From Planctomycetaceae bacterium (GTDB taxonomy: Bacteria > Planctomycetota > Planctomycetia > Planctomycetales > Planctomycetaceae), in assembly GCA_021732785.1 (NCBI GenBank), contig JAKFUG010000012.1:124001-188000 (forward strand): a DNA stretch of 64,000 nucleotides, read 5' to 3'. This document shows positions 3,110 through 5,345 of the stretch, one piece after another. Within the stretch, counting starts at the first letter, position 1, and the number at the start of each line of letters is the position of its first letter. A program made the translations under genes and the position numbers. A model generated the notes under the pieces. That model worked only from the letters and a program-made list of their open reading frames with translations, ran no database searches and was not told the DNA's origin.

Positions 3110-3850
3110 ATGACCAAGCTACGCACGGGTCTGGTGAGCATTACCGGTCGCTTCCGCGACAACAACGAAGATAATGCGTACGTCGATCCACAGAACCGGT
3201 TTTTCCTCGTCGCCGACGGGATGGGCGGGCAATCGGCCGGTGAACGGGCCAGTGCGCTCGCGATGGAAATCGTCCCGCAAAAGCTGAACTCGATCGATTT
3301 TGCCAAGGCGTCACCCGAGCAAGCCGTGCGCGTCATCGATGAAGCCGTCGCTCAGGCGAACTTTGAAATTATGGCGTTGGGGGAACTCGACTCCCGTTTC
3401 AAAAACATGGGAACGACGATCACCTTCCTCGCGGACATCGCGGGATCGTTGTTCATCGGCGGCGTGGGTGACAGCCGCGTGTATCTGCTCCGCGGCGGCA
3501 AATTCGAACAGCTCACGACCGATCATTCGCTCGTCCAGGCATTGATCGATGCGGGAACGCTGACCCCGGAAGAAGCGGCGAATCATCGTTATCGCAACGT
3601 GCTGTACCGCTATCTCGGCGCGAAAGAGGGCGGCTCCGGCACCACGCCGAAACAGGTCCAGCCGCGTGTCGGCGACCGTTACGTGCTCGTCACCGACGGC
3701 GTGACCGGCGGGTGTTCCGACGAATTGATGGCGTCCATTCTTGCTGACGGCAACGACCCGCAGGCCATCGCCGAGGACATCGTTCGCGCCGCGGAAGACG
3801 GCGGATCCAAAGACAACATCACCGCGCTGGTGGTATTCGTCGAAGGCTGA
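3110..3850 (+). CDS. PP2C-family protein serine/threonine phosphatase
   Basis: 246 residues, the usual length of a stand-alone bacterial PP2C (Stp/PrpC type). Metal-binding signatures are intact: RDNNED at about 16-21, VADGMGG at 34-40, a GVGDSRVYLLRGG strand pair, VTDGVTGG, and a C-terminal GGSKDNITALVV. It is expected to be cytoplasmic and to remove phosphate from Ser/Thr of proteins, opposing Hanks-type kinases, which are numerous in planctomycetes; no kinase is adjacent. It lies 39 bp after the PIG-L gene and is probably the last gene of the 637-3850 operon. A strong hairpin follows it at 3867-3922. Confidence 0.93.
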   Translation: MTKLRTGLVSITGRFRDNNEDNAYVDPQNRFFLVADGMGGQSAGERASALAMEIVPQKLNSIDFAKASPEQAVRVIDEAVAQANFEIMALGELDSRFKNMGTTITFLADIAGSLFIGGVGDSRVYLLRGGKFEQLTTDHSLVQALIDAGTLTPEEAANHRYRNVLYRYLGAKEGGSGTTPKQVQPRVGDRYVLVTDGVTGGCSDELMASILADGNDPQAIAEDIVRAAEDGGSKDNITALVVFVEG

Positions 3851-3866
3851 TTGCCGGGCTCAACAA

Positions 3867-3922
3867 GCCGGAAGCGCAAGCGCCCGGTCTCTTCGCAGGA
3901 ACCGGGCGCTCGCGCTTCCGGC
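3867..3922. repeat. Perfect 22-bp inverted repeat behind the phosphatase gene
   Basis: Arms 3867-3888 and 3901-3922 are perfect reverse complements, beginning gccggaagcgcaagcg, with a 12-nt loop. It starts 17 bp after the phosphatase stop codon. There is no T-run directly behind it on the plus strand, so it may be a REP-type palindrome that also blocks read-through or protects the mRNA 3' end. It sits between two convergent transcripts: the phosphatase mRNA and the candidate RNA at 3945-4137. Confidence 0.7.
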
Positions 3923-3944
3923 TCGTCAATCTTGTTACGCGCGC

Positions 3945-3990
3945 AAAAAAACGAAGACCGCGGCGAATCCGGGGATTCGACGCGGTCTTC
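3945..3990 (-). terminator. Intrinsic terminator of the candidate RNA
   Basis: On the minus strand GAAGACCGCG (3990-3981) pairs with CGCGGTCTTC (3962-3953); the interior extends the stem with CGAATCC/GGATTCG around a 2-nt loop, and seven T residues (3951-3945) follow. This is a textbook Rho-independent terminator with no protein gene upstream of it on that strand. Confidence 0.85.
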
Positions 3991-4137
3991 TAATGCGATC
4001 AGCCTGTTCTCGATTGCGACGGTGGAGTCGCGGGCGAATAGGGCGGAATGCAGTCCCGCTAACGCGGTCACCGTTGGTCATTCGAGCCCTCGCTAAAGGG
4101 TTGGCACCTCCGACGGAATCTTGAGAACAGGTGATGC
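3945..4137 (-). ncRNA. Candidate 6S-like structured RNA gene
   Basis: No plausible protein lies here, yet the minus strand has a full transcription unit: promoter (4145-4173), about 190 nt, then an intrinsic terminator (3945-3990). By eye the RNA folds into a closing stem (CCUGUUCUC, 4131-4123, plus GAUU, 4120-4117, pairing with 4015-4003; 13 bp, 2-nt bulge). A large central bubble follows (4116-4094 opposite 4033-4016). It is capped by an irregular terminal hairpin: GCGA/UCGC, GGGC/GCCC, GAAUG/CAUUC, then CCGC-GUUA-GCGG at 4067-4056. Stem, central bubble and irregular hairpin are the architecture of 6S RNA, which mimics an open promoter and binds housekeeping RNA polymerase. The core is about 129 nt, short for 6S. 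The identity is inference; an independent RNA gene is well supported. Confidence 0.6.
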
Positions 4138-4144
4138 AGGACGT

Positions 4145-4173
4145 CTTGTAGATGTGGACTCGAAAGCAGGCAA
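4145..4173 (-). promoter_or_regulatory. Sigma70-type promoter of the candidate RNA
   Basis: On the minus strand TTGCCT (4173-4168) and TACAAG (4150-4145) are separated by exactly 17 bp; each matches 4 of 6 consensus bases. The predicted start lies near 4137, a few bases before the closing stem of the RNA. Confidence 0.5.
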
Positions 4174-4266
4174 GACCGATTTCACGTCCAGCGTCGTTTC
4201 GTCGCGAAGTGTTCATCGGCAATTGCCCCGCGCAGAATTGCATGATTCTTTACAAAGCGGATGAGC

Positions 4267-4328
4267 GGACAGTGGGCAGTGAACAGCCAGACGAAGAGGC
4301 TCCTCTTTCTGTTCCCTGCCCACTGTCC
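4267..4328. repeat. Palindromic repeat (agtgggcag type), copy 1
   Basis: Arms ggacagtgggcagtgaacag (4267-4286) and the near-complementary 4309-4328 form a roughly 20-bp stem with one mismatch. It lies upstream of the Tat-exported isomerase-like gene; a related element follows that gene at 5274-5345, so the gene is bracketed by the same repeat type. Confidence 0.6.
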
Positions 4329-4405
4329 ACTCCCGCCTCATTCACCGGCGCGGTATGGTATTTTTCCGTTCTCCGCGATGACAACATTTCCTGAAGGATC
4401 ACACC

Positions 4406-5272
4406 ATGACCGATTTTCCTTTCGCCGGACCGAGTCGCCGTCAGTTTCTGCAAGCCTCGGCAATGGCTGCCGCTGCGACGGTGCTGGGTACGTCGCGCCT
4501 CTTCGCGGCCGACGATCCGTATGCCGGTTTCAAAATGGGGCTGCAGAGTTATTCCCTGCGGGCGTTCGACACCGAAAAGGCGATGGAACACACGCGGACG
4601 CTCGGACTGAAGTATTGGGAATCGTTCCCCAAGCACGTGCCGATGGGAACCGTTCCGGCCCATATTGCCGAGCAGAAAGCCATTCTGACCAAGGGCGGCA
4701 TCACCGTGATGGCATACGGCGTGGTTGGTTTTGATGCCAACGAAGACGCCGCCCGCCGGACGTTCGATTTTGCGAAGGCCATGGGGATCGTGTCGCTCAG
4801 CGCCGATCCAGCCAAAGATAGCAAGACGTTCGACATGCTTGACAAACTGGTCGCCGAGTATGACGTGGCGATCGCGATCCACAACCACGGCCCGGGACAT
4901 CGGTACAACAAGATCTCTGATGTCGTGGACATGGTGAAGGATCGCCATCCGAAGATCGGCGGCTGCGTCGACACCGGCCACTACCTCCGCAGCGACGAAA
5001 GCCCGGTCGAAGCGATTGAAAAACTCGGCAAACGCGTCTTCGGCGTGCATCTCAAGGATGTGAAAACCGTCGAAAAGGATGGCCAGAAATCGAAGCAGTT
5101 CAAGATTCTCGGCGAAGGGGATCTCGATGTCCTCGGCTGTCTCAACGCACTCAAGAAACTCGACTACAAATATTGCCTGGCGATCGAATACGAAGAAAAC
5201 GCCGAAAATCCGATGTCGGATCTCGAAGTTTGCCTGAAGAATGTGCGCGAAGCCGTCAAGAAGATGAGCTGA
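4406..5272 (+). CDS. Tat-exported sugar phosphate isomerase/epimerase-like TIM barrel
   Basis: 288 residues. The N-terminus is a twin-arginine signal (SRRQFLQASAMAAAATVLG, about residues 10-28, ending near FAADDP). The mature part matches the xylose isomerase-like TIM barrel / AP endonuclease 2 family: KMGLQSYSLRAF, LKYWESFPKHVPMG, IAIHNHGPGH, GGCVDTGHYLRS, VFGVHLKDVK and CLAIEYEEN, which give the His, Asp and Glu metal-ligand candidates. Planctomycetes carry many such periplasmic proteins, some beside sugar dehydrogenases; the substrate is unknown here. The gene is monocistronic and flanked by palindromic repeats on both sides. Confidence 0.85.
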   Translation: MTDFPFAGPSRRQFLQASAMAAAATVLGTSRLFAADDPYAGFKMGLQSYSLRAFDTEKAMEHTRTLGLKYWESFPKHVPMGTVPAHIAEQKAILTKGGITVMAYGVVGFDANEDAARRTFDFAKAMGIVSLSADPAKDSKTFDMLDKLVAEYDVAIAIHNHGPGHRYNKISDVVDMVKDRHPKIGGCVDTGHYLRSDESPVEAIEKLGKRVFGVHLKDVKTVEKDGQKSKQFKILGEGDLDVLGCLNALKKLDYKYCLAIEYEENAENPMSDLEVCLKNVREAVKKMS

Positions 5273-5273
5273 G

Positions 5274-5345
5274 CAGTGGAGAGTGGACAGGGGACAGTGG
5301 GTAGCAGGAAATGAATGGCATTCCTGCTGTCCACTGCCCACTGAT
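5274..5345. repeat. Palindromic repeat (agtgggcag type), copy 2
   Basis: An imperfect inverted repeat begins 2 bp after the stop at 5272; cagtggg..agcaggaa pairs with ttcctgctgtccactg. It shares the gtggacagtgggcag vocabulary of the element at 4267-4328 and may stop transcription of the isomerase-like gene. Confidence 0.5.

Follow-up and report, generated by a model that had tools for sequence, protein, structure and literature searches.

The question raised by this locus is whether an RNA gene on the minus strand of the window (the whole stretch of 64,000 nucleotides of Planctomycetaceae bacterium DNA that was analysed) is the 6S RNA of this lineage, as the original prediction suggested it may be, or a new class of RNA with the same plan. 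The result is close to the second alternative. The RNA has its own promoter, its own terminator and strong covariation and, judged from its sequence, almost certainly represents a new family. It is new at the RNA-family level because it fails every family tested and is without a counterpart in Rfam 15. The features of the locus are given below, with their basis in parentheses.

3110-3850, plus strand: PP2C phosphatase gene, convergent with the new RNA.
3945-3990, minus strand: intrinsic terminator, GC-rich stem AAGACCGCG..CGCGGTCTT followed by T7 (sequence and folding; equivalent in nearly all homologues).
3945-4138, minus strand: putative transcript of about 190 nt (promoter, conserved fold and terminator).
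3994-4011, minus strand: closing stem P1, 3' arm GAGAACAGGCUGAUCGCA (folding and covariation).
4016-4031, minus strand: hairpin P3, GCGAC-UCCACC-GUCGC (alignments and covariation).
4034-4093, minus strand: long imperfect hairpin P2 with tip CCGC-GUUA-GCGG (folding; 22 of 22 modelled pairs changed on both sides).
4094-4119, minus strand: AUU and junction strand J1/2, CCGUCGGAGGUGCCAACCCUUUA (alignments).
4123-4138, minus strand: closing stem P1, 5' arm UGCAUCACCUGUUCUC (folding; 11 of 11 modelled P1 pairs changed on both sides).
4145-4150, minus strand: -10-like hexamer TACAAG, spacer of 17 nt (sequence; TAYAAC in relatives).
4168-4173, minus strand: -35-like hexamer TTGCCT (sequence; the arrangement recurs upstream of congener and genus g34 homologues).
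4215-4221, minus strand: TGCCGAT element upstream of the promoter (enriched upstream of homologues).
4406-5272, plus strand: TIM-barrel protein gene with a TAT signal, divergent from the new RNA.

The transcript start was placed about 7 nt after the -10-like hexamer, and the gene would be transcribed as an RNA of approximately 150-190 nt. The promoter-like site TTGCCT-17-TACAAG was found as predicted, and TTGNNN-17-TAYAAC occupies the same position in congeners and in another genus, g34 (Schlesneria-type); the loci concerned in congeners and g34 together are L003, L004, L005, L036, L041-L044, L092 and L103. The window promoter lies below the 9/12 consensus cut of a simple promoter scan and is hence unlisted there; the simple terminator scan did not list the terminator of the new RNA. 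The terminator with T7 was confirmed, and its equivalent lies directly after the P1 closing stem in nearly all homologues. The roughly 190 nt had been described as free of protein-coding features, and no plausible gene was found there; no protein-coding gene is evident because the stems covary and the homologues vary in length (mostly 143-160 nt). Of 100 homologues, 24 have TGCCGAT in the roughly 80 nt upstream, at varying distances, compared with 1.9% of random windows from the same loci (shuffled expectation 0.6). It is possibly a regulator or sigma-factor site.

The MFE of the region is -85.7 kcal/mol, compared with -60.1 +/- 4.3 kcal/mol for dinucleotide shuffles (z = -5.9). Compensatory changes among relatives, which had been proposed as a check, were sought in an alignment of 100 homologues (A5). 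As A5 was fitted to the covariance model and leans towards structure, its figures are to be read with this in mind: 38 of the 41 base pairs show changes on both sides, 858 compensatory cells were counted against 234 in shuffles, and 89.7% of cells are paired, compared with 68.5% in shuffles and 32-44% with the partners slid. When 14 sequences were aligned without a model, 13 of 22 predicted pairs carried double changes. The strongest couplings by APC-corrected mutual information (alignment A4) are nearly all modelled pairs. The locus is a conserved folded RNA gene, far beyond chance.

From 5' to 3' the RNA consists of P1, J1/2, P2, P3, an AAU leading back to P1 and the terminator, giving a three-way junction in which one joiner is long. 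The AUU before J1/2 pairs with the AAU preceding the P1 3' arm. The original prediction was right about the closing stem and the terminal tip CCGC-GUUA-GCGG; the length of 13 bp did not hold, the stem being longer, with bulges. The open central bubble of 23/18 nt was refuted: its 18-nt 3' strand is the conserved hairpin P3, in which 96.2% of cells are paired (100 sequences), so that the plan differs from that of 6S RNA. In distant members compensatory changes turn the stem of P3 into GCGGC/GCCGC and GCAG/CUGC. Genus g27 has P3 shortened or lost (L126 and L127 are without most of it). In L110 the match (2634-2864) spans 231 nt for a model of 152 positions and therefore holds a long insertion.

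Conservation is centred on the junction (J1/2 and P3), while the stem sequences turn over. In the alignment of 14 sequences a long hairpin of varying sequence connects a conserved junction, ATTCCGTCGGAGGTGCCAA, with a hairpin, GCGACTCCACCGTCGCAAT. Outside the stems no element is better conserved than J1/2 (23 nt in the window; approximately CRGAGG-N(1-3)-CCAA), which is highly conserved across 15 families. Its GGAGG possibly docks on the CCACC of the P3 loop. One covarying pair joins J1/2 and P3 (44-176; GC80, AU10, GU4), and 95% of the cells of this pseudoknot pair, but they are near invariant and shuffled controls score almost as high. The docking is only suggestive, since most of the change falls within a single clade and shuffles do nearly as well.

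Homologues were collected in steps of widening scope. With the locus as BLASTN query, about a dozen of 59 related genomes showed a clear match to the core. A first covariance model (R1), built after the 14-sequence alignment, located the RNA in 127 of 170 genomes of the family, with one significant match per positive genome and an additional weak second match in one genome. A second model (R2), from 90 sequences, located it in 214 of 397 genomes of the class (15 families and 101 of 185 genera), with one full-length copy per positive genome among the matches listed. The 36 positives in a phylum-wide sample of 392 genomes all fall within Planctomycetia, and no match was found outside that class in the sample. 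A pattern scan of GTDB contigs gave 61 matches, of which 51 were confirmed by the model; the named ones among these are planctomycetes (Gimesia, Schlesneria, Planctomycetaceae and others). The model did not bear out the pattern matches in non-planctomycetes such as Streptomyces and Xanthomonas, which were therefore rejected; viral contigs gave no matches. A 22-bit match in genome G399 (L128) and a second weak match in G177 were treated as chance. Families f2, f3, f4 and others have the RNA either absent or too diverged to detect, and it is therefore not universal in Planctomycetia.

The identity with 6S RNA was examined with RF00013 and with a class-specific 6S model (R3; 24 sequences including weak hits, alignment A6). 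RF00013, searched against the whole genome with E up to 10, matches a single place, on another contig (C12:139020-139218; 60.1 bits, cut-off 46.4), and gives no match within 3700-4400 of the window. R3 scores the same C12 gene at 137 bits and finds nothing at the locus of the new RNA, while R2 finds no match in the 24 6S loci or in the SRP locus. By these tests 6S and the new RNA are unrelated, and membership of the 6S family was rejected. In principle a genome may hold a second 6S paralogue, as that of Bacillus subtilis does. The single-stranded central bubble of 6S was not found either, the 3' side being P3 and the 5' side long and conserved; this point carries moderate weight because a small hairpin at this position also occurs in some 6S RNAs.

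The distribution of the two RNAs was also compared. RF00013 was detected in 125 of 198 genomes of a class sample, and many genomes carry both RNAs (e.g. G000, the genome of the window, and G001, G006, G034, G076, G077 and G120). In families f2, f3 and f4 6S is present and the new RNA was not detected, while in most f5 and f106 genomes the new RNA is present and RF00013 was not detected. R3 finds diverged 6S in genomes of f7, f8, f107, f108 and f113; of the f5 and f106 genomes searched with it, most gave no convincing match. A role for the new RNA as a replacement for missing 6S is not supported in general, because diverged 6S was found in families that seemed to be without it.

A second RNA polymerase decoy that works like 6S without being homologous to it was also considered. 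In its favour, the arrangement of closing stem, asymmetric interior and terminal stem is reminiscent of 6S, promoter and terminator belong to the gene itself, and families f5 and f106 have the new RNA while Rfam 6S is mostly undetected in them. 6S has moreover been reported absent in Thermogutta terrifontis, Pirellula staleyi and Rhodopirellula baltica (PMC5673643). This report contrasts with a 6S candidate obtained with R3 (34.4 bits, E = 1e-6) in G045, taken as T. terrifontis R1, at L284 1501-1707 (G045:C1:768874-769080, minus strand). With that candidate and the diverged 6S of the five families above, the coexistence of canonical 6S in this genome and in many of the same family, the hairpin on the 3' side of the 'bubble', which makes that region a three-way junction, and models that do not cross-match, a decoy appears quite improbable. 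Nothing specifically supports a 6S-like way of working.

The other known families were searched with Rfam 15. No family reaches its gathering cut-off anywhere in the window, nothing matches the core with E up to 10, and 16 diverse homologues gave no match to the new RNA with E up to 1; a confident match to another family, for which a search had been recommended, was thus not found. The SRP RNA of the genome (RF00169, 49.2 bits) lies on contig C68, and SRP identity was rejected. Neither RNase P RNA nor tmRNA matched the new RNA in the Rfam searches; both are much longer. Low-threshold Rfam matches at 3864-3925 and 4255-4338, mostly to microRNA families, rest on perfect or near-perfect inverted repeats, score far below cut-off and were discarded. 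The first, a near-perfect repeat, lies between the terminator of the new RNA and the convergent PP2C gene, of which it is perhaps the terminator. The second and another at 5276-5345 are intergenic, built on GACAGTGGGCAGT and flank the TIM-barrel gene. Near matches to GACAGTGGGCAGT number six in the window against one expected, so that a dispersed repeat is possible.

The compact conserved junction with a terminator at once after it would also suit a cis-acting leader of a downstream gene, such as a riboswitch or an attenuator. The next downstream gene in the window is convergent, however, and downstream gene families do not recur from lineage to lineage. When ORFs around 95-100 homologue loci were clustered, no neighbour family was present in more than 10-12 loci; the commonest, the TIM-barrel gene (10-12 loci in several genera), lies mostly upstream and in two cases downstream. 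A leader is largely refuted by this synteny and is hardly probable at all. As no neighbour gene is conserved, the new RNA probably acts in trans. Its own promoter and terminator, its covarying fold and the lack of a fixed downstream gene are the marks of a stand-alone trans-acting ncRNA.

The best reading is therefore a new stand-alone, trans-acting structured ncRNA family of Planctomycetia, the junction of which probably binds a protein; our confidence in this reading as a whole is evenly balanced. A folded binding site is favoured because conservation sits in the junction while the stem sequences turn over, as is typical of such sites. The variable stems would hold the conserved junction (J1/2 GGAGGUGCCAA, possibly docked on the P3 CCACC loop) in place. 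The junction would be the working surface, most likely the binding site of a conserved protein, and the RNA may regulate or scaffold this partner, as other housekeeping regulatory RNAs do. That the RNA is a protein-binding (RNP) regulator acting through J1/2 and P3 is put forward tentatively, with slightly less than even confidence; against it, the neighbour genes suggest no partner protein. A wider proposal, which we consider rather unlikely, is a class-wide housekeeping RNP with a lineage-specific protein, controlling a basic process peculiar to Planctomycetia by a mechanism unlike those of 6S, SRP, tmRNA, RNase P or base-pairing sRNAs.

The conservation of J1/2 could equally be that of a base-pairing seed. 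In a trans-acting base-pairing sRNA, J1/2 (GGAGGUGCCAA) would pair with mRNA targets or, as an SD mimic, with the CACCUCC end of 16S rRNA. Its high conservation across 15 families fits such a role, GGAGG in which an A is changed to G could still pair with CCUCC through G-U, and the RNA has the Rho-independent terminator with a U tail that is usual for base-pairing sRNAs. The GGAGG columns are, however, mostly predicted to be paired in single-sequence ensemble folding (unpaired probability 0.10-0.44), which speaks mildly against an open seed; the f5 clade shortens GGAGG to GAGG, and P2 and P3, which a seed does not need, are conserved as well. We regard a base-pairing sRNA as unlikely.

GGAGG also contains the GGA recognized by CsrA, which the RNA might titrate as a sponge. 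CsrA genes were found in all 30 class genomes searched (2-16 matches each). Known CsrA sponges carry many GGA hairpin loops, whereas the new RNA has a single conserved GGA that is not in a hairpin loop, and CsrA is also multiplied in families without the new RNA. A sponge is very improbable. The genome of the window itself has eight CsrA-type genes.

Few single-copy structured RNAs are kept across a whole bacterial class, and many such known RNAs (RNase P, SRP, tmRNA and 6S) turned out to be core machinery. Roughly half of the Planctomycetia genomes sampled carry the new RNA, and the cell biology of this class is unusual. As it is not in Rfam, it is missed by annotation that relies on Rfam. 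The result averts a likely mis-annotation as 6S and offers a testable gene in a cultured species, T. terrifontis. Its position in strain R1 (CP018477) would be about 2,927,736-2,927,891 on the plus strand, provided that the contig of G045 is this record unrotated.

Among known systems, the Rhodopirellula-1 motif is a candidate structured RNA from Planctomycetes; according to its table row it occurs in Proteobacteria too, is apparently a cis-regulator and has no Rfam accession (Weinberg, 2010; PMC2864571). As far as this description goes, the new RNA is set apart from it, being without a conserved downstream gene and confirmed only in planctomycetes. The small SRP RNA (RF00169) is likewise short, single-copy and structured, but the new RNA folds differently and does not match it. 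The likeness to 6S/SsrS RNA (RF00013) is closer, with a similar length, an own transcription unit, a closing stem, an asymmetric interior and a terminal hairpin. The two nevertheless differ in that no covariance match exists either way, canonical 6S being encoded separately in the same genome, in the conserved J1/2 sequence, which is not seen in the 6S alignment, and in the centre of the molecule, where 6S has an open bubble and the new RNA a three-way junction with hairpin P3.
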